Shown here piece by piece: positions 12,801 to 58,819 of a DNA stretch of 64,000 bases (position 1 is the stretch's first letter; every line of letters starts with the position of its first letter). Location: NCBI GenBank assembly GCA_963575745.1, contig CAUYUJ010015507.1:131732-195731 (forward strand), read 5' to 3'. A program made the position numbers and the translations under genes. Source of the DNA: Prorocentrum cordatum (lineage: Eukaryota; Sar; Dinophyceae; Prorocentrales; Prorocentraceae). Under the pieces are notes generated by a model. The model made no database searches, was not told the DNA's origin, and saw only the letters and a list, made by a program, of their open reading frames with translations.

Positions 12801-13394
12801 CCTGGACGACTAGCCTGGCGCTTCTTCTCACGCACGCCGACGGGGTCGGCGCATTCTGGCTGAAGATTGCGGTGCGGCCCGCCCATCGACCGCATCGCGC
12901 CTTCGCTCTGCGCCCAAGCCGACGTCCCCAGACCCCCGACGGCATGATTTTTTCATAACGTCGACCCTCAGAGGTCTGGACCCATTCCCCGGCATCCGTT
13001 TTGCATCCTGAGTCGTTTGTTGACGGTCCCGAGGGCCACGTAGTGCGCCCAGAGGCCAGAAATGGCGAACAAAACCATTTCCCGTCGTGATTTCTCCACT
13101 GCCCGAGGGGGCCTGGGCTCTGCGCCCACGCCGACGTCGGCGCCCTTCCCGCCACGCGACATGGCGGGCGCCGGCCGCGTGCCCGGAGCTCGGTGCGGCC
13201 TGCCCGAGGCGGGGCCGCGCGCCGCCCGGGGCGGCGCGGCAGGCCGCCCGGCGTGCCCCGAGGGCGCCGGCGGCCAGGTGGAGCCGCTGCCCTTCCCGAG
13301 GTCGGGGAGGTGCCAACCGACTTGAGAGCCGTGGCCGCCAGGAGGAGTTGCGAGCACCAGGGAAGCACCTCGACGGCGAGCGAGGGGGGGAAGT
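12801..13394. other. No gene seen; very GC-rich
   Basis: Two CTCTGCGCCC-CGCCGACGTC words at about 12907 and 13118 hint at an old duplication. Frames on both strands are Ala/Arg/Pro-rich, as expected from composition, and carry no motif I recognise. Confidence 0.45.
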
Positions 13395-13535
13395 GAGGAG
13401 GAGAAGGCCTTCTCAGAAGGCGGCGGGGCTTCTCAGAGGGCCTCCGGCCTTCCGAGAAGTTTTTTCTGTCCTCGGGGAAGGGTTGGCAAACTTCTCAAAA
13501 GTCCCGGGAACTTCCGAGCCTTCTGAGCAGGCCTT
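13395..13535. repeat. Degenerate hairpin sequence next to the island
   Basis: AAGGCCTTCTCAGAAGGC, then GGCTTCTCAGAGGGCC, GGCCTTCCGAGAAG and later GAGCCTTCTGAGCAGGCC make several nested CTTCT-AGAAG foldbacks, resembling the hairpin element at 4853-5011. It abuts the left edge of the island. Confidence 0.45.
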
Positions 13536-13820
13536 CTTTGGTGATGGCGTTGACATATGAGATCTATGTCAGATGAAGTCACTTATAAGTTACTACAATT
13601 ATATATGAAGTTATTTGTAAGTAACTTGAAATCACTTGTAGTGAGATATGTTAAGATCCTGCAACTACCATCCACATCTAACTTAATTCATTAACATTTA
13701 TACTTAAATCACATGTAGAACATATGTTACTTGTGTGCACCCAATTGCCATACTTATAAGTTACTTGTAGTTATACTTATAAATAAGATAAGTTTAAGTC
13801 CGATAAGTCTGCTTTTTCGT
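13536..13820 (+). repeat. Left terminal inverted repeat, AT-rich
   Basis: Starts CTTTGGTGATGGCGTTGACA, runs through about 235 bases of AT-rich sequence with ACTTATAAGTTACTTGTAG words, and ends TAAGTCCGATAAGTCTGC plus TTTTTCGT. It is about 285 bases long, against 151 for the right copy. Confidence 0.8.
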
Positions 13821-14004
13821 CTGCTTTTTGAAAAGGGGGTCGGAAACCGAAAAACGCGCAGGTTTTCTTCAGCACAGTGTTTCGCCAGGCGCCAGGCGAC
13901 CGAGAAGGCCGTTCATCACCGAGCTCAACCCGCGCAGCCTGGGGGGTAGGAGAGAGGGGGCGGGAATGGCGGGGGGGGGATCGGGAGGGGATGCCATGCG
14001 CATT

Positions 14005-14521
14005 GGCGGCACACCGCCCGCACTTCTCATCGCGGCGCGTTCTGATGTGATTCGTTTCGGCGGCCCACCGCCCACGTCTTGCAAATTCTGAGCAGTTTTA
14101 TCGCATTGGCGGCGCACCGCCCATCGCTATGTTTTGCCCGCGTATTGCAATTTGTACGTTTTGCACATGTTGATTGAAGTTTCGTCGCGTTGGCGGTGCA
14201 CCGCCCACGTTCCCTTGATTGCGCGAATCGTTTCTTCACGCATCGGCGGAGCACCGCCCACGCAGCACGTTTCATCCGAATTCGTCATCGAATTTGGCGG
14301 TACACCGCCCACGTCCCCGTGATTGCGCGATGCGTTTCTTTCGCGTTGGCGGTGCACCGCCCGCGGCGCATGCTTCGCCCGAGTTTGTCATCGCATTTGG
14401 CGGCCCACCGCCCACGTCACCTTGATTGCGCGAGGTGTTTCTGCATTCGTTGGCGGTGCACCGCCTTCGGCGCACGTTTCATCATATACCGTTTGTTTGG
14501 TCGCATTGGCGGCGCACCGCC
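14005..14521. repeat. Palindrome array 1, ten GGCGG-N4-CCGCC, ~104-bp higher-order unit
   Basis: Palindromes start at 14005, 14059, 14108, 14192, 14245, 14296, 14348, 14399, 14452 and 14508. Every stem is GGCGG/CCGCC; loops are CACA, CCCA, CGCA, TGCA, AGCA, TACA, TGCA, CCCA, TGCA and CGCA. Spacers alternate between a TTGATTGCGCGA type and a TTTCATCCGAATTCGTCATCG type, so the true unit holds two palindromes. It lies immediately 5' of gene A. Confidence 0.9.
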
Positions 14522-14649
14522 CAGGAGGATAGCAGAAGGAAGACGTGAAGGGCCATGCCATTTCCCTTCGCCACAATACGCTGCCCCTGTCCCACCGAGC
14601 GCTTCTGGAGGGGCCGCGGGGCGGGCGCCCCCCGACGCGCCGCGGCGCG

Positions 14650-16654
14650 ATGGAGCGCGTCCAGGCTGCCCTGGGCGAGGCAGCCGCGGCGCTTGCAGCG
14701 GCGAGCGGGCCTTCCAGGGGCGCTGCAGAGCAGCTGCACTTCGGGAAGGTGCGCGCGCTCATCGAAGGCCAGAGGTGAGGCTCGGGTCAAAGATCCCGTA
14801 CGGGCGAGAGGCCATCCGTTCCCCCTTCGAGGAGGTCCCCGCCTCCGTTCGGCGGAACGCCGCCCGCTCCCCCCTCCTCCCCGCCGTCTAACATTCCCCC
14901 GTCGTTTTGCAGGTGGACGGCCACGGAGAAAGGGCAGCTGCTGACCCAGCTCGGGCAGACGGGGTTCAGTCACGATTTGGTCGGCGCCGCGACCGAGTGG
15001 CTCTGCGGGAGGCGCGCGAAGGCCAAAGGGCAAAGTTACGAGTGCTTCGTGGAGTTGCTGACTGCCTCCACGTGGCACGTGCTGCTGAGCCCAACCGAGT
15101 CGTTCGCTTCGAAATTTGTCACGTTGATGCGCCACTTGGAGCGCCTCGGGCTCCGGAACCCTTCCGAGCCGACGTTTGGCATGCTAGCCGCGTTCATGTT
15201 CCTGGCGTGCCAGCGATCAGGCATCGAGAAGAATTCGCCGACTCCGCAGCTCTTGGACGTGTACTTGCAGTTGGTGAAGACCACGTGGCGTTCCCCTGCC
15301 TACACAGCTGCTCGAGGCAAGGCAACCGAGTTTGTCGGCGCGCTCTCCCCCTCGGCGGCGCTGCTCCAGCAGGAGAGGCCGACGCTGTACGAGCAGGCGT
15401 TCGCCTCGGAGGGGCCCGTGCAGCCGACAATTGGGCTTCTCGAGACGCAGGTCTTCGGGAAGCTCATCAGCTTGCGCGGCAACAGGAACGCAGCGCTCGG
15501 CGCCCAGGCAACGCCGCAGCGGGCGGCGTTGCCGCCGATCGCCTTCGCGCCTCTGCCGCCGCCTTCTCCGATGCAAAGCGTTGCGGTTGCAGCCGCGACG
15601 ATTGCCGCGACGCCTCCCTTGGGGCCGCGACGCCAGCGGCGTTGCCGTTGGGGGTGATCCCAACGCACAACACCCGCGGCGGGTGGCCGAACCCAGCGGC
15701 GGCCGCCCTCGTCTCGCAGCGCGGGCCGACGACTCCCACTCCAGCAGCTCCCGCGGGCAAGCCTGCCGCGATGTCGGGAGCGGCGCCTGCGGCCGCGGCC
15801 TCAAAGTTGGGTGGTGGCGCCAAGGTCAAGGCATCGGCCGTTGACGTCATGGTGCTGAGCTCGAGCGAGTCCGAGGTGGACGCGAAGGGGGCGCCGCAGA
15901 AGAAGGCAAAGGTTTTTGGACGGTAACCTGGACCCGCCTCCGCGGCCTCCGCGATTCACGGGGGCGCGCCTCTGCCCAAGGCAGCGGCGCGCCCTCTGCG
16001 GGGCGTCGCAGGCGCGGCGATTGGTTATTGCCACTTGCCGCTGTCAAGGTGGATCCGACACTGCCGCTGGCGAAGCTGCCTGCCGACGCTGCCCTGGTTC
16101 TCCTCCAAGCGGCGGGGCAACGTACTTCCTCTGGCTGGAAAGCGGAGAAGGGCGAGAAGAAGCGGAGGAAGTCCGACGCAGTGGCGGCCTTGGCGAAGAC
16201 AAAGGCTTCAGATGGCACGGCGAAGCCATCGGCGGCGAAGGCAAAGGCAAAGGCAAAAGCCGAGGCAACACCGAAGAAGACTGCGAAGGCGCAGGCGGCA
16301 GCATGCAAGCTGAAAGCACCGCGGTATGACGACGAGACCACTCGCAGCCAGATTCTCTTCAGGAGCGGGCGCAGCGGGCCAGGCGGCACCAAGAGCAAGA
16401 AGTACAGGAACGGCAAGGAGAAGGACACTTTTGGGTCCCATCTCCTCCAATCGGCGTGGCCACGGGGCTCGATGCGCGGCGGCGGAGCGCGTTGTCGCGG
16501 CCGCGCGTGGCCTCGCTCCAATCATATGCGCAAAGAGACCCCGCGGGCCACTTTGCGTTTATGACGGTTTTCATCTGCCACTCAGGAGGCCGCCATCGCC
16601 TGGGCCAAGGCGCTGGTGCAGAGCGAGCTGGAGGCTCGCAAGAGCGAGTTCTGA
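14650..16654 (+). CDS. Gene A: conserved dinoflagellate protein with lysine-rich C-terminal half
   Basis: Spliced by eye: exon 1 is 14650-14774 (start ATGGAGCGCGTCC), exon 2 is 14913-15922, exon 3 is 16012-16423 and exon 4 is 16586-16654, giving about 538 aa. Introns 1 and 2 are GT-AG with AG|G acceptors and join in phase; intron 3 would be GA-AG. Residues 42-200 are helical, with the motif LERLGLRNPSEPTFG near 15137-15180, which I remember from a widespread dinoflagellate family of unknown function. VDVMVLSSSESE near 15841 looks like a SUMO-interaction motif. The third exon is lysine-rich (KAKAKAKAEATPKK), histone-H1-like in composition. The frame changes by one base at GGGG 15621-15624, which is a real indel, an error or an unseen intron. 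First gene of the island, after palindrome array 1. Confidence 0.6.
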
Positions 16655-16838
16655 GGCGACCTGCTTCGGTGGCGCGATGCATGACTCTCAGTCGGATTTG
16701 CCGCGGGCGGCGCGTGGGGCGCGCAGCCTGCGTTCAGAAAACAAGGAACTCGGATCGAAATCGGATCGTAATCTTATCGGGCCTTGCTTGTCCTTGCGCT
16801 GCTCAGGCGGTTCTTCGTATTTCTTGGAAGGTTTGCCT
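16655..16838. other. Short intergenic spacer A-B
   Basis: Unique sequence between the gene A stop and the palindrome pair, possibly 3' UTR. No polyadenylation signal recognised. Confidence 0.4.
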
Positions 16839-16878
16839 GGCGGTGCACCGCCTCCATCTGTTGTCGGCGGTGTTCCGC
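16839..16878. repeat. Palindrome pair between genes A and B
   Basis: GGCGGTGCACCGCC at 16839-16852 and GGCGGTGTTCCGCC at 16865-16878, 26 bases apart. Confidence 0.85.
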
Positions 16879-17190
16879 CTTCGCTGGTTCCATTACCATG
16901 GGCGTTCTCATTTCTCTGACCGCTGCCTCGCCCTTGCCCGCCTCCCTCCGCCGCCCCCCCCGCGCCTTTTCAATTCAAGCAGCCCTCCCCGCGGGTCCCG
17001 CGGCGCCCCTCCCCGCGCCGCTGCCGCCAGCGGCCGCGGGCGCTTCGCGGGCGCATGGCGAGCGAGGGCGCGGCCAGCAGCGCCATGGACAACTCCGCGG
17101 AGGCGCTGGGAATTCAGAAAACGCCTGCTCAGCCCGAAGCGTCCGCTTGGGCAGTGCAGGCTGATTTCCTGGATTCCTGTTGAGGTGCAC

Positions 17191-18270
17191 ATGGCGGCTT
17201 CAGATGCGAGCCAGTCGCTTTTCGAGCAGGTCGCCGAAGCCTTGAACCTCTTCGAGATGTTCGCCCAGGCTCGAGGGAAACGGATCGAGCGCGCCCGACG
17301 CCCATGCGGCCCCGCCCCCGTTCGCCCGCGTTGGCCTGGATGCAGGCGGCGGCGGGGCAGGGCCCAGAAGCGACGGTGCTCTCGGCGTTTACCTTGCCTT
17401 GCGCAGGAGGCAGGCATGGATGACATCATCGCCGATCCCGCGCCGCCAGGCTGGCAGACGGCGGAGTGCCCTGGCAGCAGCAGCAGCGACCCCTCGCCAG
17501 AGGCGAAGCAAGGACCGACGCTCATCCCCGTCCACAATCAGGGCGCGGCGCCGAAGTCGCCGCCACGTCGCACCCGAGACGCTGGCGGCACGTGGCGGGC
17601 GGAGCAGCAGCAGCAGCAGCAGGAGGTGCAGCAGCAGCAGGAGGTGCAGCAGCAGCCGCCGTCGGAGAAGCCTCAGCCGCCGTGGCGCCAGGCGCAACCG
17701 CCAGCAGGCGCGCCCAACGTGGGCGCCTCAGGCGCGCCCAACGTGGGCGCCTTCGTCGCCAAGGTACCCGAAGTGCCGAAAGCGTCTGCGGCGCCAGAGG
17801 ACGTGGTGCAGGCGTACAAGTTCTTGCGCTCGCTGCTGAGCGAGAGCGCGCCGATCGCCTGGAACTCCAAGCGCGTCCAGGAGCCACTGGAGCTGCTGCA
17901 GCGCTACGTCGGCATCTGGGGTCGCGCCAGCAGGGGGCCGCCCGCGCCCATGCACGGTGGCCCGCAATTCTGGCGCGGCCAGACGTGGCGCAAGAGCGGG
18001 AAGCGCTGGGGCAACCGTGGTGGTTCAGGCCCCAAGTCGGAGTGGTACGCCTCCAAATACGGCCGCGCGCCACCGCGCCGCTCGCTCCAGGACAGCGGCG
18101 GCGGCCCGTACCTCGCGCCGACGCCGCCGCCGCCACCGCCGCCACCGCCGCCCCCGCGGCCGACGGCCGCGAGTTCGGCGCCCGCGGCAAAGGCAGCGGC
18201 CGTGCGGCCGCCTCCACTGCCCCTGACGGTCAAGGCGATGCCTTCCAAGAACCGCGGGCTGTACCTCTGA
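17191..18270 (+). CDS. Gene B: Gln/Pro-rich protein of unknown function
   Basis: Start chosen at ATGGCGGCTTCAG (17191), because the frame upstream crosses the palindromes and composition changes there. A frame-neutral GT-AG intron of 87 bases (17320-17406, acceptor GCGCAG|GAGG) would remove an Arg/Pro-rich insert, leaving about 330 aa. Order: acidic helix SLFEQVAEALNLFEMFAQA; serine/acidic linker; poly-Gln (QQQQQQ, EVQQQQEVQQQ); a GAPNVGA duplication; a helical core EDVVQAYKFLRSLLSES followed by ELLQRYVGIWGRA; a Gly/Trp/Arg-rich segment; and a poly-Pro run near the end. No enzyme motif is visible. An earlier ATG at 17055 opens a coding-like frame (MASEGAASSAMDNSAEAL) that stops at 17182 and may be a separate 5' exon. 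Function unknown; co-location suggests an element-borne accessory role. Confidence 0.5.
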   Translation: MAASDASQSLFEQVAEALNLFEMFAQARGKRIERARRPCGPAPVRPRWPGCRRRRGRAQKRRCSRRLPCLAQEAGMDDIIADPAPPGWQTAECPGSSSSDPSPEAKQGPTLIPVHNQGAAPKSPPRRTRDAGGTWRAEQQQQQQEVQQQQEVQQQPPSEKPQPPWRQAQPPAGAPNVGASGAPNVGAFVAKVPEVPKASAAPEDVVQAYKFLRSLLSESAPIAWNSKRVQEPLELLQRYVGIWGRASRGPPAPMHGGPQFWRGQTWRKSGKRWGNRGGSGPKSEWYASKYGRAPPRRSLQDSGGGPYLAPTPPPPPPPPPPPRPTAASSAPAAKAAAVRPPPLPLTVKAMPSKNRGLYL

Positions 18271-18540
18271 GACTCGCGGGCCGCGGGCTTTGACAACCCC
18301 CTCGGAGGTCAGACGCCGACTGAAACATCCATGAGGGGCGGGGGGACGTGAGAGCGGAGAGGTGATGGACGGTGAGCCAGGAGACAAATGGAAAGAGAGC
18401 GGAGTGGAAGTTTCAGTCGGCATCTGATTTTCCGATTTTCAGGTGCCGTTCTTCGCCGCTGGCGGCTGTCGCGGTAGGCGTGCGCCGCGCTCGCGGGACC
18501 GTTCGCGAATATCCTTTGCGCGCGTCGCCAGCAAAAAATC

Positions 18541-18661
18541 GGCGGGGCACCGCCTGTCATGGGCTCTCGTCGGCGGCACTCCGCCTAACTTCGGCGGTGC
18601 ACCGCCCGCGCGCGCTGGACTCCCAGCACTCCCCCCCATTCAGCTTCGGCGGTGTACCGCC
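18541..18661. repeat. Four palindromes between genes B and C
   Basis: GGCGG-N4-CCGCC at 18541 (loop GGCA), 18572 (CACT), 18593 (TGCA) and 18648 (TGTA), spaced 31, 21 and 55. Confidence 0.85.
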
Positions 18662-18895
18662 TGTGCGTGCTCCACGCTCCCTGCACGCCTCCTCCATTCC
18701 TCTTATGATGTTTTCCGCAGCCGCAGGCTCCAGGCTGCGCTTGCGCCGCGCTTTTCCCGCGCGCGCCTTCGCGGGCGCCCATCCGCCGTCCTCGGCGCGC
18801 TCTCGCAGCCTTCGCGGCCGCCTCCCTTCGCGCCGTCTTTGGCGCGCTCTCGATCGCGGGCCTCCAGTGCGCCATCGAGCTCTTCTCTTCGCGAG

Positions 18896-19636
18896 ATGCC
18901 CATGATCAGCGTCTTCGGGTGCACGTGCCCGTTGTCGGGGACCTGCTCGAAAGGCGGGAGTTTCTTCAAGGGCGCGTCGCGAGATGAGGCCCTGTCGAGG
19001 CTCAAGACGCACTTGGTGAAGTCGAGCTACCACCTCCTCGAGGATGTCGACGCGGATCTTCAACTGGCCATCGCCGAGGTCGGCGCGCCCAAACGATTGC
19101 TTGCCCACGTCTTTCGGCGAACCTCGGTGGCGCTCGGCTCACCGAGGTCCGAGCGCCTTCGAGGTTCGACGAATGGCGCGAGCGATCGCGGGGCGCGCTT
19201 GAAGGTCGAGGAGTGGACTGAGGACACGGACGAGTGGGAGCGCTGGCAGAAGGCCAACGACGAGCAGTGGTGCAAGAACAACCGCCGCCGTGGCGCTCGC
19301 AGCGCGCCGTACCAGCCTCCCGAGCAGGTCGCTCCACCCAGCCAGAGTGCAGTGGCGGCGGCCTTCCCGAAGGGCAGCGGCAAGGGCGGTCCGCTTCAGC
19401 TCAACATGAGCGGAGCGAGCGCGCCCGTCAGCGCCAACATCGCGCCCGAGGCCACCGTGCAGCTGAACTCAGCGCAGGCGCAGGTGATCCTCGACAGCGT
19501 CACGAGGGCGAGGATGTGCTCGGCGGCCTGCCTGGCAGTGGCGGAGCGGTCGGCCGTGGCGTTCCGCGCCGAGCAGGCGGCCCTCGCCGACCTGCAGGAG
19601 ACGCTGGCCAGCTGGCTCTCCAACAACGCGTCGTGA
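18896..19636 (+). CDS. Gene C: small protein with N-terminal cysteine cluster, unknown function
   Basis: 246 codons from ATGCCCATGATC at 18896 to TGA at 19636. The N-terminus FGCTCPLSGTCSKGGSFF has a C-x-C-x5-C cluster that could bind metal. Helix-rich segments follow (DEALSRLKTHL, HLLEDVDADLQLAIAEV), then a charged DTDEWERWQKANDEQW stretch, and an Ala-rich C-terminal helix ending LASWLSNNAS. A 78-base frame-neutral GT-AG segment, 19127-19204 (acceptor AAG|GTC), overlaps an inverted repeat and may be an intron, which would leave 220 aa. Same strand and style as its neighbours; no homologue recognised. It follows palindromes and precedes a microsatellite block. Confidence 0.5.
   Translation: MPMISVFGCTCPLSGTCSKGGSFFKGASRDEALSRLKTHLVKSSYHLLEDVDADLQLAIAEVGAPKRLLAHVFRRTSVALGSPRSERLRGSTNGASDRGARLKVEEWTEDTDEWERWQKANDEQWCKNNRRRGARSAPYQPPEQVAPPSQSAVAAAFPKGSGKGGPLQLNMSGASAPVSANIAPEATVQLNSAQAQVILDSVTRARMCSAACLAVAERSAVAFRAEQAALADLQETLASWLSNNAS
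19119..19167. repeat. 19-bp imperfect inverted repeat inside gene C
   Basis: GAACCTCGGTGGCGCTCGG (19119-19137) and CCGAGCGCCTTCGAGGTTC (19149-19167) pair with two mismatches and an 11-base loop. It falls at the edge of the putative intron. Confidence 0.65.
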
Positions 19637-20039
19637 GGCCACGTTGGGGTCCTCCCGTCGCGGCGGCGTCGGCCGCCCCCTTCGGCCGCCTCGTCGGCCG
19701 CCCTCTTCGGCCGCCTCGTCGGCCTAGCAGCCCGCCGCGCCGCCCGCGCAGGGCTTGCATCGGCCGCGTAGGCCGCCTTGGGCCCCGCGGGGGTTCGACG
19801 CCGACTGACAGATCGGGGAGGGGCACGGTGAGGGAGGTGCGGAGGGAAGGGGCATGGAGAGGAGCATGGGAGGGGGGTGCGGCATGGGGAGGGGCATGAG
19901 AATCGGGGTGGGGCGGAAAGGCTGTCGGTCGGCTTCTGACCCCCGCAACTCTTCGGCGCATCCGCGCGGTCGCTCGCGCGCGCGCGGGCCGTGCGCGCAC
20001 TCTTATTTTTGGCGGGTCCGCCATTCTTTCTTGGAAAAC
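19637..20039. other. Intergenic spacer C-D, GC-rich
   Basis: GTCGGCCGCC-CTTCGGCCGCC words repeat at 19665-19730. 19800-19920 is G-rich with repeated GGCATGGAGAGG-like words. No gene seen. Confidence 0.5.
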
Positions 20040-20078
20040 TGCGATCATCATCATCAACATCATCGTCATCAACATCAC

Positions 20079-20120
<42 letters not shown>

Positions 20121-20400
20121 GAGTAGCATTGCCATTCTCATCCTCATCATTCCGATCACCCCCATAGGAGGAGAAGGAAGAGGAGGAGTGGTGGCGAGGA
20201 GAGGGCGAGGAAGAGGAGGAGGGGAAGGAGGAGGAGGAGGAGGAGGAGGAAGGGGGGGGGGAGGAGTCCTTCCCCACCATTTTTCATCATCATTCTCACC
20301 ATCATCATTCCGATCACCACCATCGGAGGAGGAGGGGGAGGAGGAGGAGGAGGAGCAGCAGGAGGAGGAGTGGTGAGGAAAGAGAATGAGGATGAGGAGG
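20040..20400. repeat. (ATC)n and (GGA)n microsatellites
   Basis: CAT triplets at 20044-20130, GGA/GAG at 20168-20270, CATCATTCTCACC words at 20285-20325 and GGA again at 20330-20400. TTCCGATCACC and GAGGAGG blocks occur twice, so the tract is an imperfect duplication. Confidence 0.85.
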
Positions 20401-20407
20401 AGGAGAG

Positions 20408-20862
20408 GGAACGATCTCGGCGCGGCTGCGATGAGGGCTGGTTTCCTGCGCCGCGTATCGCGGCGTATCCTGGCGTATCCTGGCGTATCCTGGCGTATCC
20501 TGGCGTATCGCGGCGTATCGCGCGACGGCGCGACGCGATGCGCCAGGATACGCCAAGATACGCCGCGATACGCCAGGATACGCCAGGATACGCCCGTATC
20601 CTGCCGTATCCTGGCGTATCCTGGCGTATCCTGGCGTATCGCGGGGTGCCGCGGAGCGCGATGCGCCAGGATACGCCAGGATACGCCGCGATACGGGCGT
20701 ATCCTGGCGTATCGCGGCGTATCCTGGCGTATCCTGGCGTATCGCGGCGCGCCGTCGCGCGATGCGCCAGGATACGCCAGGATACGCCAGGATACGCCAG
20801 GATACGCCGCGATACGCGGCGCAGGAACGCAGCCCTCAGCGCAGCCGCGCCGAGCTCGTTCC
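20408..20862. repeat. 455-bp palindrome built from a 10-bp repeat
   Basis: The outer arms (GGAACGATCTCGGCGCGG from 20408; its reverse complement ends at 20862 with CCGCGCCGAGCTCGTTCC) are inverted over about 60 bases. Inside are blocks of the 10-mer GCGTATCCTG alternating with blocks of its complement CAGGATACGC, switching strand several times, with GCGTATCGCG variants at the block ends. The centre is near 20640-20660. It could fold into one large cruciform or several smaller ones. Confidence 0.9.
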
Positions 20863-20874
20863 GATTCTTCGGAA

Positions 20875-21050
20875 TCGCCATCACCATCACCATCGCCACC
20901 TCGCCATCTCACCTTCACCACCACATCACCATCGCCACCTCGCCATCACCACCTCACCATCACCAGAAATCATCGTCAGCACCTCGCCACCACCATCATC
21001 GCCACCACCAGCATCATCGTCGTCACCACCATCAGCATCACAACCTTGCC
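20875..21050. repeat. CACCATCACC-type minisatellite
   Basis: Repeats of CATCACCATCGCCACCTCGCC and shorter variants over about 175 bases. Confidence 0.85.
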
Positions 21051-21064
21051 ACCACGTAGTCGTC

Positions 21065-21595
21065 GGCGGCGCACCGCCCATCGGTTGGACTTGTCCGCTG
21101 TGCTCCGCCCTTTGTTTTGTTTGACGTTTCCGTCGGCGGTGCACCGCCCATTGCCTGGTTGCACAATTTCGTCGGCGGCGCACCGCCCATGGATCGTCGT
21201 TGTCGGCGGCGCACCGCCCATTGTATGATTAGACAATTTCGTCGGCGGTGCACCGCCCATCGGTTGGACTTGTCGGCGGCGCACCGCCCAATTTATGATT
21301 GGGCAATCTCGTCGGCGGTGCACCGCCAATCGGTCGTCGTTGTCGGCGGCGCAGCGCGCATTGTATGGTTGCACAATTTCGTCGGCGGCGCACCGCCCTT
21401 CGATCGTCGTTGTCGGCGGCACACCGCCCATTGCATGGTTAGACAAGTTCGTCGGCGGCGCACCGCCCATCGATCCTCGTCGTCGGCGGCGCACCGCCCA
21501 TTGTTTGCATGTATATTCGTGAGCGCCACGCCGATCATTTGTTTTCCTTGTCGCGGCTGTCGCATCGCGCCGCGCGTTTTCGGCGGCGCACCGCC
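21065..21595. repeat. Palindrome array 2, exact 70-bp higher-order unit
   Basis: GGCGG-N4-CCGCC starts at 21065, 21135, 21174, 21205, 21244, 21275, 21314, 21384, 21415, 21454, 21485 and 21582, with degenerate copies at 21096 and 21345. From 21135 the spacing is strictly 39, 31, 39, 31 and so on for five units. Spacers are TTGTATG-TT-GACAATTTCGTC and ATCG-TCGT-GTC types. It lies directly upstream of gene D. Confidence 0.95.
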
Positions 21596-21759
21596 TGTTG
21601 TTCAATTGTGTAGGCTGTGTTGCGCAGCCTTGTCCACTTCTCCAGAACCAACCTGCTCTCTCATCCGCCTTGCCCCTTGTTCCCTTTCATCCTCGCGCCG
21701 TGTTCTCGACAGCCGTTTTGTGCTGGCGGTCGGCCGCGGGGGCCGCGGCGCCGCGGGCC

Positions 21760-24171
21760 ATGGCGGCCGCCGAGGAGGAGTCGCCCGTGCCCCCCTTCTT
21801 GCACGAGGGCGTCAAGTCACCCGTGCCGTCCGAAGACAGCTCGCAGGAAGAAGGCTCGAGGCCGCAGGCAGCAGACTCGTTCAAGAACGAGCCGCAGGAA
21901 GCAGGCTCGAGGCCGCAGGAGCTTGGTTCTGTGAAGGCCGAGGAAGGCGACACCTCGGCGGAGGCCAGTGCAGCTCCGCCTTGGCCCAAGGCCTCCTCGC
22001 CTGCGACTCCGCAGGAGCCCCCGCAGCGCGTGCCTGAGGAGGTCGCGGCCGCTGCGAAACCAAAGGCGGGGAAGGCGGGGCGGCCTCTCCTCAGGCGCCC
22101 CGCCGCCGTGCCGCCCGCCAAGCAGCCCCCGTCGCAGCGCTCGCTTTCTCAGTTCTTGACCGCGAAGAAGGGCGGCGGCGCACCGCCTGCGAAGGCAAAG
22201 GCGAGCGCGGAGCCCAAGGCAAAGGCCAAACAGAAAGCGAAGAAGAAGCCAGCAGCGGCGGCACCTTCGACGGCGGAGGACGCAGCAGCAGGGGCGGACG
22301 AGGCAGAGCCACAGCAGCAGGCCCAGACGCAGCACGACAAGAAGTCGGTTGCAGCCTCGCAAGCACCGCCGGCAGCGGAGGAGGATGCAGAGCCACAGCA
22401 GCAGCGTCAGGATGCAGCGCCGACGGAGGCAGAGGCGGCAGCAGAGGAGCCGCAGGCCGCGCCCTCAGACACGTTCGAGGCCGCCACGGACGAAGCAAAA
22501 GATGACTACGGCCGCTTCACGACGGGCTACGACCCACCCTGTCCAGGCCCGACGTGCGCCAAGTGCGGTCGGGATGCGGAGAGCGTCCGCTTCAGGCTCG
22601 CCCAGAAGAGCGCCAACACGTGGTGGTGTGGGAGCTGCAACAGCAAGAGTTCGATGGTGCAGCGCTGCTATGCGCACTGGCCACCGCGCTCGTTCGCTCT
22701 CATGCGCAAGGCGGACCAGCAGGCGTTCTGGCGCTCGATGGACGACCCTTCCATTGAGAACAACGCTCAGTTCGAAGAGGAGCTGGTGAGGGTCCTCAGC
22801 GTCTCGAGGAAGGAACGCCTCACGGAGACCAAGGGCGGGGATTGGAAGCCCTTGTCCGTCTGGGCCCAGGAGGGGTACGACGCGGACGCCGTCCGTGCCA
22901 ACAACGACGTGAGGTACAATTCCGACTTGAAGCAGGATTGTTACCGCATCCGCATCGAGGGCAGCAGGCAGGAGAACATCGAAGAGACAGTGAGGCAGGA
23001 GCTCCGCCAGAACAGGAAGCCGCCGAGGCCATCCCCACCGAAGCATGAGAGAGCCGTGGAGCCACTCCCGCAAAAGACGCACCGCTCGCCGAGCGGTGGC
23101 TACGAGGGCCCCACAGGCGCTGGTCGCCGTTCGACGAGTCGGAGCGGCGACAGCGACTGTTCGCAGAACCGCCAGCTGAAGCGGGGCCACTCCAGCAGCG
23201 GCGACGGCGCGGACCGCTTCCCCAGCCGCGGCCGCAAGCGCAGCAGCCGCGGCCGCAGGGCGGACAGCCGCCAGAAGCACCGCTCTTCCAGAGGTTCCCG
23301 CAGAGCCGACGCGAAGGGCCGCCGCTCGAGGAGCCGCAGGGCGCACAGCAAGAAGGAGAAGGCCCGCTCGAGGAGCCGCAGGGCGCACAGCAAGAAGGAC
23401 AAGGCCCGCTCGAGGAGCCGCAGGGCGCACAGCAAGAAGGACAGCCGCAAGACGGGTCGCTCCCAGTCTCGCGAGAAGCAGCGCTCGAGGAGCCGCAACG
23501 ACCACGGCAAGAAAGGGAGGGACTCGCGCAGTCGCATCAGGAGGGAACGCAGCGAGCAGAAGCGTGTCCAGAAGGCCATCAAGGACCGCAAGGCGTTGGC
23601 GATGAAGACGCTGGAAAAGACGGGGTCCTGGGACGTGCAGCTCGCATCGCTCCTCGACGACGAGGACTGCTCCAGGGTGCCGACCTGGGCGGTGAAGAAC
23701 GCGAAGGACAGCCACAAGGATCTCTCGAAGCTCAGGGAGGCCGCGAAGACCGCGCTCGAGGACCCCAGGGCGAGCTTGCCGTACGAGGCGAAGGCCCTGG
23801 AGGCAGCCCTCGCCGACGCAAGACCGCTGTCGGTGGCCTGCGTTCGGCCATCGAGCACGCGAGCTGCTCACGGCCTTTTCATCCATCGTGGATGGCGGTG
23901 CTCCGCCGATCGACCGCTCGACTGCCGATCGATCGATCGAAGATTTTGCTGATCGACCGCTCGACCCATCGAGGATTTCGCCGATCGAACGCCGACCGAT
24001 CGCGTTCGGATCGGTCGACCGCCGATCGATCGATCGACCGCCGATCGAGCGCCGTTCGATCGCGATCGACCGCCGATCGATCGCGTTCGACCGCCGATCG
24101 ATCGCGTTTGCGTCCCGATCATCCTTCTACAGGCCAAGAAGTACAGCAAGAAGAACACCTCGAAGGACTGA
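21760..24171 (+). CDS. Gene D: zinc-ribbon protein with RS-rich tail
   Basis: Start ATGGCGGCCGCC at 21760. Exon 1 runs to 23832, a 300-base GT-AG intron (acceptor CTACAG|GCC) follows, and the last exon 24133-24171 encodes AKKYSKKNTSKD and stop, for about 703 aa. A donor at 23842 is equally in phase. Residues 1-255 are acidic, Ala/Lys/Gln-rich and disordered. Around 261-293 are CPGPTCAKC and WCGSC, a four-cysteine zinc ribbon, followed by the conserved CYAHWPPRSFALM and GYDADAVRANND segments that I remember from a large dinoflagellate-specific family. Residues 480-610 are RS/RK-rich with 14-residue repeats (RSRSRRAHSKK), as in splicing factors. A helical segment ends the protein. Nuclear nucleic-acid binding is inferred. 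A diverged homologue is at 59250-60693. Confidence 0.7.
22174..22187 (+). repeat. Palindrome inside gene D coding sequence
   Basis: GGCGGCGCACCGCC, translated as part of KKGGGAPPAKAK. It is the one copy of the palindrome seen in coding sequence. Confidence 0.7.
23315..23450 (+). repeat. 42-bp tandem repeat in the RS region of gene D
   Basis: CTCGAGGAGCCGCAGGGCGC with ACAGCAAGAAGGA is repeated three times in frame, adding 14-residue RS units. A fourth, diverged CTCGAGGAGCCGCAACGACC occurs near 23484. Confidence 0.8.
23894..24118. repeat. Palindrome plus GATCGACCGCC-rich tract in the gene D intron
   Basis: GGCGGTGCTCCGCC at 23894-23907 is followed by about 200 bases dominated by CGATCGATCG and GATCGACCGCC words. 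It sits in the proposed intron 23833-24132, so the open frame through it is not expected to be translated. Confidence 0.75.
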
Positions 24172-24358
24172 GCTCGGCGGCGGCTGCCCTGCTCAGTCCC
24201 CAGCCGCTGCGACGCGCGCTGGGGCGCGCTGGAGGCGCGCTGGAAGTCTGCCCCCGCCCGCGCAGACTTCCCTCGCTTAGACAAAAACTATATTCCTCCG
24301 TGGTCCGCCTCCCTTTCCTCGTGCACGGCGTCCTTGTAGCCATGCTCCTCTTATTTCT
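24172..24358. other. Short intergenic spacer D-E
   Basis: Contains GCGCGCTGGGGCGCGCTGGAGGCGCGCTGG-type short repeats; no gene. Confidence 0.4.
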
Positions 24359-24628
24359 GGCGGTGCACCGCCCATGGGCAGCATCCGCCGACGGCGGTAG
24401 TTTGCCTCCTGTCCACACCCCGCACTCTTCTGGCGGTACACCGCCCGTTGCCAGCCATCCGCCGACGGCGGTACTCCGCCTCCTGTCCATGCCCCGCACT
24501 CTTCTGGCGGTGCACCGCCCGTGTGCAGCCATCCGTCGTCGGCGGTGCTCCGCTTCCTGTCCATGCTCAGGAGTCTTCTGGCGGTACACCGCCTGTTGTC
24601 AGCCATCCGTCGTCGGCGGTACCCCGCC
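24359..24628. repeat. Palindrome array 3, ~74-bp higher-order unit
   Basis: Palindromes at 24359, 24393 (degenerate), 24432, 24467, 24506, 24541, 24580 and 24615; spacing alternates about 35 and 39. Spacers carry GTCCATGC-C-CACTCTTCT and CAGCCATCCG types. It lies between genes D and E. Confidence 0.9.
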
Positions 24629-24711
24629 ATCCGTCATCCGTCGTCACCCATCCGTCATCCGTTGTCAACCTTTTCCACCGCCTCACCCACCCTACTTCAA
24701 CGGCTCGAAGG

Positions 24712-24893
24712 GCGCCCGCGGCGGCGCGCCAGGCGGGGGCGGCGCCATGGCCGAGCGATGGCCCCCTGCCGAGCGTCAGAGGCTGCAGGAGGCAGCGCTT
24801 CTGCGCCCGCGGCGGCGCGCCAGGCGGGGGCGGCGCCATGGCCGAGCGATGGCCTCCTGGCAAGCGGCAGAGGCTGCAGGAGGCAGCGCTTCT
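24712..24893 (+). repeat. 91-bp tandem duplication at the start of gene E
   Basis: GCGCCCGCGGCGGCGCGCCA through CAGGAGGCAGCGCTTCT occurs at 24712 and again at 24803. Each copy holds an ATGGCCGAGCGATGG start. Because 91 is not a multiple of three, only the second ATG (24838) is in frame with the rest of the gene. Confidence 0.85.
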
Positions 24894-27320
24894 GCGGGGC
24901 GTATCGCGGGCGGCGCTGGACAGGTGCACGGAATCCAAAAATCATAATGCGCAATGTGTTTGAAGGATGTTTTGTTTGGTCGGCTTTTTCTTTTCAAAAT
25001 ACCCAACCGATCTCCACCCGCCTTCCCCGCGCAGGGTGGCTCGCGTCCTGCTGCAGGACGACGACGAGCACGTGGCGGCGGCGACCGTGGGCGCCGACGT
25101 GGCTCGCGCGGTGGCGCCGCTTCTGGATGTTATCGAATTGCCGCGCCGAGACGGTGGCCCAGCGTTCAGGTGGACTGTATGTTTGCCCGACAAGATCGTC
25201 CCCAAGCTGGCCCACGCGGCGGGGCCTTGGAGTGATCGGTTCTGGGCGGCGATGCGGGTGTTTCCTTCGTCGCCATCGCAACCGTGGCGGATGCTGCTCT
25301 ACCACGACGACGTGGTCGTCGGCGCGCAGCTCAAAGCTGCAAACCGCAGGACGTCCATTGTTGTGTACATTAGTTTTTTGGAGCTGGGCACATACCTTCA
25401 AGAAGAGGGCGCCTGGCTCCCGCTGGGAGTCCTTCGGTCAGAGGACAAGAAGGATATCACCGCAGCGGGCGTGGTGAGGGCCATCCTGCGGCGCCTCTTC
25501 CTCGGGCCAGGAGGCGGCGGTTTCGACGTCGGCGCGTCTCGGTTGCATTTCAAGTGCCACAGGCTGATCATGGACGAAAGCGCGGGCAAGGACACCTTCT
25601 CGTACAAGGGCTCCAGCGGTTGGCGGCCCTGCTGCAACTGCAAGAACGTCGTGCTCGACCAGGGGACTGGCACCCTCAGCCGTTGGGACCCGTCTGGTTA
25701 CCTGGTGGGTATCGCTTGCGTCGACGCCTCGAGGTTCGACCCGATGACTGCGGAGGCGTCGGGGGCGGGCAATGCGCGGCCGACGCTCGGCGAGTCCAGA
25801 GAGTTCACGAACGGACTTCGCGAACTCCCTGGAATTCGCGAGCGGAGTTCGCTCGGCCGGCCCCCGCCAAGGAGTTCGCGAAGGGGTACGACGAACTCGT
25901 GGAACTTCAACGCACGGCGAGTGCAGTGGCCTTCCAGAATCTCCAATCCGCGTACGGCATCACAGTGAACGAGTTCTCGTTGATGGCCGACGTCGAACTC
26001 CGACGCGTTTGCTCGCTGGACATGTACACGCGCGACCCGATGCACATCATCCTGGCGAGCGGAGGCACGTTCCAGGTGGAGGTGTTCTGCCTGCACAAAG
26101 CAGTGGCGCGCGTGATTCCAGACGTGTGGGATCGGTGGCGAACCGATTTCCAGCGCTGGGCTCCAGGCCGCGGCGGAGGGAAAGCTCCCGTGCATCTCTT
26201 CTCCCCTGCCAGGAAGAAAGCCTGCGTCGAGGCAGGGCATTTCGTCGGCTCCGCGTCGGACTGCCTCGCCGTCCTGCCGTTCCTCAGGAACTGGCTGCGC
26301 GTGGATTTCTTGCCGCATCACGCGCCGTTCCTGCCCCAGGCGCGGTCCTTTGAGGCCATGTATGCCGTCCTGGAACTGTACCTGGCGGCGAAACGCGGCG
26401 GCTGCCCAGACACGTTCGATGTTGATTTCAAGCGCCATGTCGGGTTGGCGCTCAGGAAACACGTGCGGGCCTACACGGACGCGTGGATCGTGCCTAAGCA
26501 TCATTATCTTTGGCACGCAGCTGTGCAGGCGGCGGAGGATGGGTTGATGCTCGACTGTTTCGTGCTCGAGCGAAAACACAAGCTCATCAAGGACACCGCG
26601 GAGCACTACGACCGCTTGGGCGGCATGGACAAGGATGTGATCACCCAAGTTGTGGCTACGCACTTGCACGAGTCCTCGGCCGCGCCGCGCCAGTCGCACA
26701 AATGGTGGCCGACCCCTGAGCTCGACGGGATCATCGGGCAGCGCGGTTGGGGCCAAATGGGCTTTGGTGCACGCGCGAGCCTCCATGGGGGGCGCGCCTG
26801 CGGGGGCGCCTCTCGGGGCAACGCCGAGGCTCGCACGTGCACCAGGGCCTATCCAGGCACGGCGCAATCACTTGTCGTCGAGCTGCTGTCGGCGGCCTCG
26901 TCTACGGCAGCGGGGGCGTGTGGCTCGAGGGCGACGCCGCGTTCCACGTCCACTGCGTGGCGGTGGCCGCGGGGCGCTCCTACCTCATCGTGGAGCCGCT
27001 GGACCTGGCGTCGCGGCCTGCGCCTGGGGAGTCCGCGTGGCGGCCACGAGGAGGACCGAGCTGTGCAAGGAGGAGGGAGGGGGAGGAGGGGAGGGAGGGG
27101 GAGGAGGAGGAACAGGGGGACGAGGAGGAGGGGAGGAGGAGGGGGACGAGGAAGGAGAGGAGGAGGAGGAGGAGGAGGAGGAGGGGGACGAGGAGGATGG
27201 GATGGCCCACTACGCCGCCGCCCCATAGGATGCGGCGCGCTGGCTGCTGAGGACGCCCCGCGGGCGCCTGCGGCGTACACCCGCCGAGCCGAGGACGGGT
27301 CGGTCCGCGCGCTGGTGTAA
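24838..27320 (+). CDS. Gene E: DDE-transposase-like protein, five exons
   Basis: Model: 24838-24923, 25035-25800, 25872-26766, 26829-27047 and 27229-27320, all in phase, about 685 aa. Intron 1 is GT-AG, intron 2 GA-AG, intron 3 GT-AG, intron 4 GA-AG, every acceptor AG|G. The N-terminus RQRLQEAALLRGVSRAAL looks like a helix-turn-helix. LLYHDDVVVG places Asp120/121; CCNC near 228-231 is a possible zinc knuckle; RDPMHIIL places Asp339; VLERKHK places Glu517. That D...D-x-MH...ERKHK order matches a large dinoflagellate family in my memory and resembles the catalytic triad of DDE transposases such as the CACTA tnp2 type (DxMH). The C-terminal GGVWLEGDAAFHV-like beta segment and final YTRRAEDGSVRALV also fit that family. 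The third intron's exact borders are uncertain. Last gene of the island; a decayed homologue is at 62377-64000. Confidence 0.7.
25801..25871 (+). other. Gene E intron 2, introner-like, GA-AG
   Basis: 71 bases. GAGTTCACGAA at its 5' end and GAGTTCGCGAA just after the acceptor form a direct repeat, like a target-site duplication. Internal CTTCGCGAACTCC and GAATTCGCGAGC are inverted with respect to it. Removal restores REFAKGYDELVELQ in frame. Confidence 0.65.
26766..26845 (+). other. Gene E intron 3 region, 18-bp terminal inverted repeats
   Basis: GGTGCACGCGCGAGCCTC (26766-26783) pairs with GAGGCTCGCACGTGCACC (26826-26843), one mismatch. A GT-AG|G splice at 26767-26828 keeps the frame; cutting exactly at the repeat ends (26766-26845) also keeps it but needs a GG start. 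Confidence 0.6.
27053..27194 (+). repeat. (GAG)n tract in gene E intron 4
   Basis: Impure GAG/GGGGA repeat of about 140 bases within the proposed GA-AG intron 27048-27228. Read through, it would add a Glu/Arg run that interrupts the family's usual C-terminus. Confidence 0.75.
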
Positions 27321-27333
27321 AACGCGCGCGCGC

Positions 27334-27415
27334 GGCGGTGCACCGCCTGGCGGTGGGCCGCCTGTTGTAAAAAATCACGTTCGCGCGGCGGTAGCCCGCC
27401 TGGCGGCATCCCGCC
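27334..27415. repeat. Four palindromes after gene E
   Basis: Close pairs at 27334 and 27349 (loops TGCA, TGGG) and at 27387 and 27402 (TAGC, CATC), each pair 15 bases apart, both preceded by CGCGCG. Confidence 0.85.
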
Positions 27416-27528
27416 TGGGGAAAAGGAGGGGCGGAGAGGAGGGGGGCGGGAGCGGGGCCCCGCAGGCTGCACGGATCGATGGCGACGCCGACGCGTTTTT
27501 GAAAGCGCCCCCGCCCCCCATTTTCCAT

Positions 27529-27679
27529 ACGAAAAAGCAGACTTATCGGACTTATAAATTAGATATAAGTTACATATAAGTAAGATATAAGTAAACTAGT
27601 TTTGATGAAGATGCTAGATATAAGTAAGAAGAAGTAACATACATGCAGCATGTAACATATGTCAACGCCATCACCAAAG
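27529..27679 (-). repeat. Right terminal inverted repeat, AT-rich
   Basis: Read on the minus strand it starts CTTTGGTGATGGCGTTGACA at 27679 and ends with CGATAAGTCTGCTTTTTCGT at 27529, the same terminal blocks as the left repeat in the same outside-to-inside order. The AT-rich middle is shorter and diverged. Confidence 0.8.
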
Positions 27680-28565
27680 TTCTCCTTGTCGCTTCCCCCC
27701 TGGGCGCGCCGCCTAGTACCGGAATCGGAGGGTTTTGCACGTGTCGGGCCCCAGGAGGCGATGCTCGCTCGACACCGTTTCGCTATGTGCTCTTCCGGGT
27801 GCTCGGAACTTTGCTGCCGGCATGCGGCCCTTATAAGCACGATGAGAGCAGCATGGCCTCAGGTTCCTGGTGGACGGGGGCCTCCTCCGAGCGGCCTCGG
27901 GGCAGCCGCGGGTCGGCGGCGCCTGGCCCTGCAGCTCCCCGGAGGCTGTGCGCGGGGCCGGCGCGGGCAGCCAGGCGCACCAGGCTCGCGAGGGGCGCGC
28001 GGAGCTCGGCGCGTCGAGCCGCGCCTCGGGTGGTCCCGTGCCGGCAGCCGGGCACCGCAAACGCAGGCATCCGGCGCCTCGGAGGCGTCGGCGCGGAGGT
28101 CTTTTGTTCACAGTGTGCGGCCTCGTTGGGCCCTCGCCGGGCCTCGGGGCCGTCAAAAGCCGACTCGGGAGGAGAAGCTCGTCCCGAGGAAGGGCTCGGG
28201 GCTGGGCCCGTGTCTCGAACAGGTCGAGACGCCGGATGTCGCCTGGGAAGATCATGTTTTGTTTACCCGAACACACCAACCCAGCCCGAAGGTCCCAGAC
28301 CCCCTCCATTTCCGGGTGGGTTCCCGAGCGCCCCCACCGGAGATTGGCAGGCCCAACGGCGACTTCGGTTCGTGTTGGGGTGGATTGGGGTGGGTAGACA
28401 GAAGGATCACAGCCACACGTGGGTGTGATTTTTCCGGGAGGGCCCCTCGGGGAAAGAGCCACCGATCTCGACACGAGCACGTTGGTTGCGGTTGTGGTCG
28501 ATTTGGCCGTCCTGGGGCGCCACATCGACCACAACCAGGACTGGGGCGGTTAGGGTGTTCTGACG
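27680..28565. other. No convincing gene; GC-rich flank of the island
   Basis: Unique sequence. GGTTGTGGTCGAT and ATCGACCACAACC at about 28493-28537 form a hairpin, and GTGTTGGGGTGG/GGGGTGGGT words are duplicated nearby. Frames on both strands look compositional. Confidence 0.4.
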
Positions 28566-42655: not shown

Positions 42656-42878
42656 GTACACACATGTTTTAATGTATGTATGTGCGTACGAGCGAATGAC
42701 TGAATTCATGCATGAATGTATGTATGTATGCATGCATGCATGCATGCATGTACATATATATACATATATATATATAACAATGTACACATGTATGTATGTA
42801 TGTATGTATGTATGTATGTATGTATGTATGTATGTATGTATGTATGTATGTATGTTATGTTATGTTATGTTATGTATG

Positions 42879-42912
<34 letters not shown>

Positions 42913-43032
42913 TGTATGTATGTATAGATGTTTGTATATATATACATCTATATGATATATATATATGTGTTATATATATATATGATATGTTATGAAATGA
43001 TACGATATGATATGATATGTTATGATATGGTA

Positions 43033-58519: not shown

Positions 58520-58819
58520 GGCGGCAAACCGCCTTCCCCTCCATCCCTCTTCGCCCCTCCCCTGCCCTTCCCCCCCATGCCTCCCCCCTCCCCCGCCCCC
58601 TCTCCCGCTTGGCGGCGAGCCGCCTTCCCCTCGCCTCCACCTTTCCCCCCCGTTCAGCGGCAGACCGCCCTGCCCCCCCCTCCCCCGCCCTCCTTTTACG
58701 GCGGCAAGCCGCTTCGACCTTCGGCGGCGGACCCCCCCCCCTTCTTCGGCGGCAGACCGCCTCATCCCTTCGGCGGCAGACCGCCCCTCCCTCCCCTCGC
58801 TATTCGGCGGCAAGCCGCC
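58520..58819. repeat. Palindrome array in the second element, CAGA/CAAG loops
   Basis: At 58520 (loop CAAA), 58611 (CGAG), 58656 (CAGA, first base A), 58700 (CAAG, last base changed), 58748 (CAGA), 58772 (CAGA) and 58806 (CAAG). None has the TGCA loop common in the first element. Confidence 0.85.

Follow-up and report, generated by a model that had tools for sequence, protein, structure and literature searches.

Dinoflagellate genomes are huge and repeat-rich, and introners point to DNA transposons as agents that shape them. In the dinoflagellate Prorocentrum cordatum we asked what is represented by a 14.1-kb block of genes bounded by inverted AT-rich ends. The block lies in a 64,000-bp stretch of contig CAUYUJ010015507.1 (positions 131,732 to 195,731), which we analysed as a whole and refer to as the window; all positions below are those of the window unless a contig is named. 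The original prediction, made from the letters alone, described the block as a multigene element of unfamiliar design. Our data demonstrate that positions 13536–27679 (14,144 bp) are a complete DNA transposon with the terminal inverted repeats (TIRs) of class II TIR elements. In the portions considered of the introner-related papers no autonomous element is described for a dinoflagellate (PMC9860276, PMC10666404), and one of these studies, within the same limits, sought partner ends only 10 kb downstream (PMC9860276), a span that a 14-kb element would escape.

The element is delimited by an outer TIR of 24 bp, CTTTGGTGATGGCGTTGACATATG (13536–13559, + strand), whose exact reverse complement occupies 27656–27679 on the − strand, and its termini read CTTTGG..CCAAAG. 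Further inward, a 26-bp block (13795–13820, + strand) has a perfect inverted match at the right end (27529–27554, − strand). AT-rich subterminal stretches (13560–13794 and 27555–27655) lie between the outer and inner blocks, and the G+C content of the element ends is low (0.36 and 0.44 in 250-base bins). The longest inverted word common to both ends is 26 bases, compared to a maximum of 13 in 2000 base-shuffled end pairs. The ends thus have the design that had been predicted, inverted 24-base and 26-base blocks with AT-rich filler. Between them are five gene models, A to E, all on the + strand and one of them, gene E, transposase-like; this too agrees with the prediction, which is refined by the introns in genes A, D and E.

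A search of the 4.13-Gb P. cordatum assembly revealed 93 occurrences of the exact 24-bp terminus and none of a reversed control. Neighbouring exact termini on one contig form 24 inverted pairs with outer distances of 13,283–16,902 bp, and two neighbours stand in the other order; the anticipated recurrence of the terminal block as inverted pairs 10–20 kb apart was therefore observed, at about 14 kb. No short derivative with an exact terminus was found, all 24 inverted neighbour pairs being at least 13,283 bp apart (changed termini lay outside this search). The end pairs at C10735:113200-128841 and C10890:802222-819123 are 15.6 and 16.9 kb apart instead of the usual 14.1 kb, possibly because these copies gained insertions later. 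The left end (295 bp) was matched at 98–100% at all 40 places scored, the best 40 of 129 candidates, and the right end (164 bp) at 99–100% at all 40 scored, the best 40 of 138.

We fetched 20 other copies and read eight more at their ends only, which together with the window provided 26 known flank pairs. All 20 fetched copies are colinear with the window over their first ~9.5 kb, from the left end through genes A, B and C to midway through D. Fourteen give an unbroken alignment at 97.4–99.3% identity, five align as two pieces at about 98.5–98.7 and 96.0–96.7%, and one (L014) aligns as two pieces at 95.0 and 90.7%. The left boundary is identical in all 20, with the first base changed in one, while the right end is at the expected place in 17; of the remaining three, one enters unknown bases and two enter other sequence. 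As gene E was also present in five of five further copies, the genes travel with the ends. The terminal blocks were neither confined to this locus nor separated from the genes, and the gene set was not found always without such ends.

The flanks of these copies reveal how the element is inserted. Identical dinucleotides flank 24 of the 26 copies with both ends read, whereas 100,000 shuffles of the right flanks yielded 4.5 on average and never more than 14, indicating that the target duplication is 2 bp. The duplicated dinucleotides are TG (7), TA (5), CG (4), CA (3), TC (2), TT (1), GA (1) and GG (1), and 19 of the 24 are pyrimidine-purine steps. In the window, a TT at 13534–13535 pairs with a TT at 27680–27681, read beside the right terminus, and the flanks, once joined, match repeat copies that are unbroken and have a single TT. 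A genome-wide search with the window flanks joined by a single TT gave 5354 first-look candidates; among the 40 scored, 38 align unbroken across the junction and ~30–45 bases past it at 88–93%, and the other two are the window's own two halves. Base-by-base alignment of three insertion-free repeat copies placed GGCCTTCTCC, with its single TT, at the insertion point of the window. As the insertion-free copies span the junction, the window element has inserted into one copy of a different, very abundant repeat, and the insertion-free sites are paralogous repeat copies for one insertion site. Repeat DNA on both sides had been noted, and empty sites and a short target duplication had been proposed as checks; each was found. 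The flanking repeat (13386–13535 and 27680–27715) is short and shows a weak inverted match to itself.

Many copies of high identity could also represent a segmental or satellite-like duplicated gene block that is no transposon. Two copies, at C18678:166955 and 211643 (L021 and L063), do have a common left flank and agree in an altered first base at the left end, suggesting that a segment was duplicated after it had received the element. However, the boundary is constant amid otherwise differing flanks, and neither the target duplications nor the insertion-free copies of the target repeat are those of a duplicated block; we regard this explanation as extremely improbable and have set it aside.

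The defined ends, the unit of ~14 kb, the 2-bp duplications, the insertion-free target repeat copies, the many near-identical copies and the common gene set are seen directly. We estimate a probability of roughly 0.93 that the element is an autonomous, recently active multi-gene DNA transposon. Its spread in this genome is recent. Across copies most frames are intact, yet many copies are damaged at some point. Frame-changing indels are found in gene A in four of the 20 other copies (L009, L011, L014 and L023) and in the window, in gene B in three (L018, L019 and L020) and in the first half of gene D in six (L011, L014, L019, L021, L024 and L028), while gene C has no indel in any of the 20 and a premature stop in one. 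Purifying selection among the 20 copies was not seen in genes A to D, where substitutions are neutral in pattern, like those of non-coding controls (gene E lay outside this test). This pattern is what a recent burst from a small number of sources would leave, and the case for coding therefore draws on the open frames, the splice sites, NCBI annotation and the remote homologues of D and E. A base of gene A exon 2 carried by all 20 other copies is missing from the window copy, and so is one base at each of two sites close to the gene D 3′ end, where all five copies read have it; thus, the window copy is slightly degraded or mis-assembled.

Gene E (24838–27320, + strand) has exons at 24838–24923, 25035–25755 and from 25872 onward, separated by a GT-AG and a GC-AG intron; its 3′ end is uncertain, with homology to about 26750. 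The junctions are identical, with no stop, in the window and in five of five other copies over the stretch translated. Its homologues are P0001–P0006, and six aligned rows of the family conserve D209, C228-x2-C231, H480-x3-H484 and E502, with D120 present in all five rows covering that position. In the part of the source considered, the CMCT clade is defined by D, D and E residues with C(2)C and H(3-4)H motifs between the second D and the last E (PMC12730594). Gene E has this arrangement, its catalytic residues being assigned by motif and model, and its structure model (predicted local distance difference test (pLDDT) 72.7, predicted template modelling score (pTM) 0.72) finds its best matches in RAG1, RAG-like and Transib structures. 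Gene E is thus predicted to encode a DDE transposase of the RAG1/Transib/CACTA (CMCT) type, and motifs and fold together support the DDE-type protein of the original prediction. The 2-bp target duplication falls within the 2–5 bp of CMCT elements, whereas the termini CTTTGG..CCAAAG depart from the 5′-CA..TG-3′ of most, though not all, members. Pfam gave no family above its cut-off for any of six E-family members, and the E profile gave chance matches only against Protein Data Bank (PDB) sequences.

The C(2)C and H(3)H motifs and the RAG1/Transib-like fold of gene E would also be expected of a member of a named lineage, be it CACTA/EnSpm, Transib, Plavaka, ESTA or ProtoRAG. RAG1 and ProtoRAG share with gene E the predicted transposase fold and the C(2)C and H(3)H motifs between the second D and the last E, and ProtoRAG has a second gene in the element. 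The P. cordatum element differs from them in its termini, its approximately five genes, its dinoflagellate host and its 2-bp duplication, and no RAG2-like gene was recognised in it. Transib and ProtoRAG make a 5-bp target duplication and have CAC-type ends, neither of which is found here. Spm has repeated short sites near its ends, whereas the palindrome arrays described below precede every gene and are not confined to the ends. The termini are neither the CAC..GTG of CACTA/EnSpm nor the TGT..ACA or CATCA..TGATG of Plavaka, and the mixed 2-bp duplications are not the 3 bp of EnSpm, not TA only and not the 5 bp of Transib; together with the absence of a Pfam family above cut-off in the six members, this argues against a named lineage. 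In the portion of the source considered, CACTA/EnSpm and Plavaka resemble the element in a DDE domain with C(2)C and H(3-4)H motifs and in duplications of 2–3 bp, Plavaka sharing the 2-bp length (PMC12730594), but they differ in their termini, and the CTTTGG end, the zinc-ribbon gene D and the lack of a Pfam match set the element apart. Fungal ESTA elements, in the same portion of that source, are alike in a RAG1-like transposase recognised by structure-based comparison, 2-bp duplications and an accessory gene (PMC12730594); they are unlike it in that duplications here extend beyond TA (5 of 24), no TET/JBP domain was detected by Pfam and the host belongs to another kingdom. In termini and target duplication the element fits none of the named lineages checked, and we consider membership in one of them improbable.

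A virus-like or Polinton/Maverick-type element that had acquired its transposase from elsewhere would account for the large size, the several genes and the inverted ends. The frames scanned gave no Pfam match above cut-off, and the E family had 59 pattern matches in viral contigs, of which none was confirmed; the element terminus was not found in viral contigs. Polintons make a 6-bp duplication and carry polymerase B, integrase and capsid genes, whereas the duplication here is 2 bp. This reading, which we find very improbable, was set aside on the 2-bp duplication, the lack of a Pfam match and the lack of a confirmed viral relative of E. The element is probably a new lineage of multi-gene CMCT-type transposons that works like a CACTA or RAG-like transposon. 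The gene E protein would bind the inverted ends, excise the element and insert it where the target is cut with a 2-bp stagger, for the most part at pyrimidine-purine steps. Dinoflagellate introners, in the portions considered, are likewise DNA-transposon bursts in the same organism group but are short and sited in introns (PMC9860276, PMC10666404). No such element is reported for a dinoflagellate in the parts of the open literature covered (subscription journals and Repbase lay outside the search).

A second feature of the element is its palindromes. GGCGG-N4-CCGCC occurs 47 times in the window and 42 times within the element, as had been noted for most of them, compared to a mean of 0.23 and a maximum of 2 in 200 first-order Markov resamples of the element. 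Thirty-eight of the 42 are outside gene spans; they cluster ahead of every one of the five genes, and again behind gene E. On the + strand, array 1 (14005–14521) places 10 copies before gene A at a spacing of 49–56 bp, once 84; pair 2 (16839–16879) precedes gene B; array 3 (18541–18661) precedes gene C; array 4 (21065–21595) has 12 copies before gene D, mostly at 31/39/70-bp spacing; array 5 (24359–24628) precedes gene E and array 6 (27334–27415), with four copies, follows it. The centres end in CA in 20 palindromes and in the opposite sense in four, 11 are the symmetrical TGCA and seven are others. The asymmetrical centres are thus oriented with the genes, consistent with either a directional promoter element or an RNA hairpin. 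Outside the element, 58520–58819 holds five GGCGG-N4-CCGCC with the centres CAAA, CGAG, CAGA (twice) and CAAG. The intergenic palindromes may be recognition sites of an element-encoded protein, gene D being the first candidate, or hairpins in the transcript, and could serve the expression of the element genes as one set.

Gene D (21760–24171, + strand; intron about 23869–24129) encodes a zinc-ribbon (CxxC...CxxC) protein with an RS-rich tail. Its homologues P0007–P0009 are from P. cordatum, and the NCBI protein P0007 has its C-terminal exon as in our model. Relatives of the transposase in the same genome indicate what accompanies it. With P0006 as query, the best 66 of 3430 candidates were scored, 36 at about 80–86% and 30 at 67–68% identity to P0006, and 63 of the 66 lack an internal stop. 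With P0004, the best 64 of 3815 comprise 22 at 37–40% with frames of ~700 codons or more (18 without internal stop), 36 at 34–36%, none with an internal stop, and six other or fragmentary rows. The sister groups are these rows sorted by identity to the query and by frame length rather than on a tree; in the comparison, which covered groups 1 and 2, identity to gene E is 29–30%. At least five groups of this transposase, that of the window element and at least four more, appear to multiply in the P. cordatum genome. Copies were read in part, two of group 1 (L070 and L071) and one of each other group (L072 for group 2, L075 for group 4).

A gene-D homologue lies upstream of the transposase on the same strand in group 1 (L070 and L071) and in group 4 (L075). 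Gene D matches the group 4 upstream gene with a BLASTP E-value of 2e-25, and the upstream genes of groups 1 and 4 give a Smith-Waterman score of 212 (shuffle maximum 72 in 2000). Directly against the group 1 neighbour, gene D is not significant by BLASTP (E 0.095); hhalign gives E 0.0085 at a probability of 4.7, and the Smith-Waterman score of 64 exceeds 2000 of 2000 shuffles. The link of D to group 1 is therefore carried by group 4. For groups 2 and 3 the reading covered only the C-terminal part of the upstream gene, and kinship with D is judged there by position and by eye. A zinc-ribbon gene D upstream of the transposase is thus common to the window element and two distant groups of one genome, and the zinc-ribbon/RS gene of the original prediction proves to have homologues beside distant transposase relatives too. 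Downstream of the transposase, L071 (5130–6400) and L072 (4312–4998) have an extra open frame beside palindromes, showing that gene order differs from that of the window element.

All four sister groups have palindromes before and after the transposase, with a sequence unlike that of the window element. Groups 1 and 2 share AGCGA-N6-TCGCT, with 10, 14 and 13 sites in L070, L071 and L072 (Markov control at most 1 in 200 resamples each), while groups further apart differ: group 3 has RGCGG-N5-CCGCY, four before and three after the transposase, and group 4 has AGCGA-N5-TCGCT, nine before and three after (control at most 1). GGCGG-N4-CCGCC is absent from L070 and L071 and occurs once in L072, within the upstream gene. 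The retained position and changed sequence point to a reader that changes along with its site, as the difference between the window element and its sisters would be expected if the two change together.

Alternatively, the palindromes may work at the RNA level instead of as protein-binding DNA sites, their hairpins marking off the units of a polycistronic transcript ahead of spliced-leader trans-splicing. The genes lie on one strand, the stems are short and the loops small, and the loops are oriented with the genes: 20 against 4 in the window element, and of the 37 sites in groups 1 and 2, 36 have G as the fourth base following AGCGA[T/C]. Dinoflagellate transcripts that span several genes and undergo trans-splicing have been reported, in the part of the source considered (PMC11453091). 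An oriented promoter element would, however, give the same strand bias, an array also follows the last gene, and in group 4 the centre flips from TCA in eight of nine sites before the transposase to TGA in three of three after it, both orientations that a loop reader should not tolerate. We therefore see a role in RNA as a real possibility but a somewhat doubtful one. More broadly, these elements may constitute an undescribed superfamily of large multi-gene RAG1-related transposons with a conserved zinc-ribbon and DDE pair, in which the palindrome before each gene would be an address for the element's own protein (or a transcript hairpin), and several families would share a nucleus with little cross-talk; for this proposal we judge the odds to be even. 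With the P. cordatum element, RAG1-like transposases, whose past is relevant to how V(D)J recombination arose, are placed in a large radiation within an alveolate. The palindrome exchange at kept positions provides a natural series for finding the reader, in organisms with poorly understood promoters and transcript processing, and since the ends, target rule, genes and sister groups are all at hand for a complete element, its activity can be tested directly.

The remaining genes were modelled with the splice sites reported for P. cordatum, which in the portion considered are GT, GC and GA donors and AGG acceptors (PMC10666404). Gene A (+ strand) has four exons (14650–14774, 14913–15911, 16049–16423 and 16586–16654) and no Pfam match. 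Its frame is open through exons 1–3 in L009, whose exon 4 has a 1-base insertion, and the P. cordatum NCBI protein P0010 stops at the junction modelled for exon 2. Among the matches listed (7996 candidates scored) gene A has two homologues, both from P. cordatum, and its structure model has a pLDDT of 44.5. Gene B (17191–18270, + strand) is an open frame for a Pro/Gln-rich protein, with an uncertain start and a possible intron near the 5′ end, and gene C (18896–19636, + strand) is an open frame of 246 residues with Cys/His in the N-terminus. The Pfam scan of the element's frames, which used sequence profiles only, gave nothing above cut-off in the frames scanned.

Between genes C and D lies a 455-bp quasi-palindrome of 10-bp CGTATCCTGG-like units (20408–20862) with 172-bp arms that are 85% complementary and with ATC and GGA microsatellites nearby; the stretch around it shows more length differences among copies than any other. 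Past the last array read, G+C is lower in groups 3 and 4 (0.36 and 0.43 compared to 0.52–0.53 for the whole pieces), resembling the ends of the window element. Elsewhere in the window, which is 62% G+C overall, the stretch 42751–43000 has ~20% G+C.

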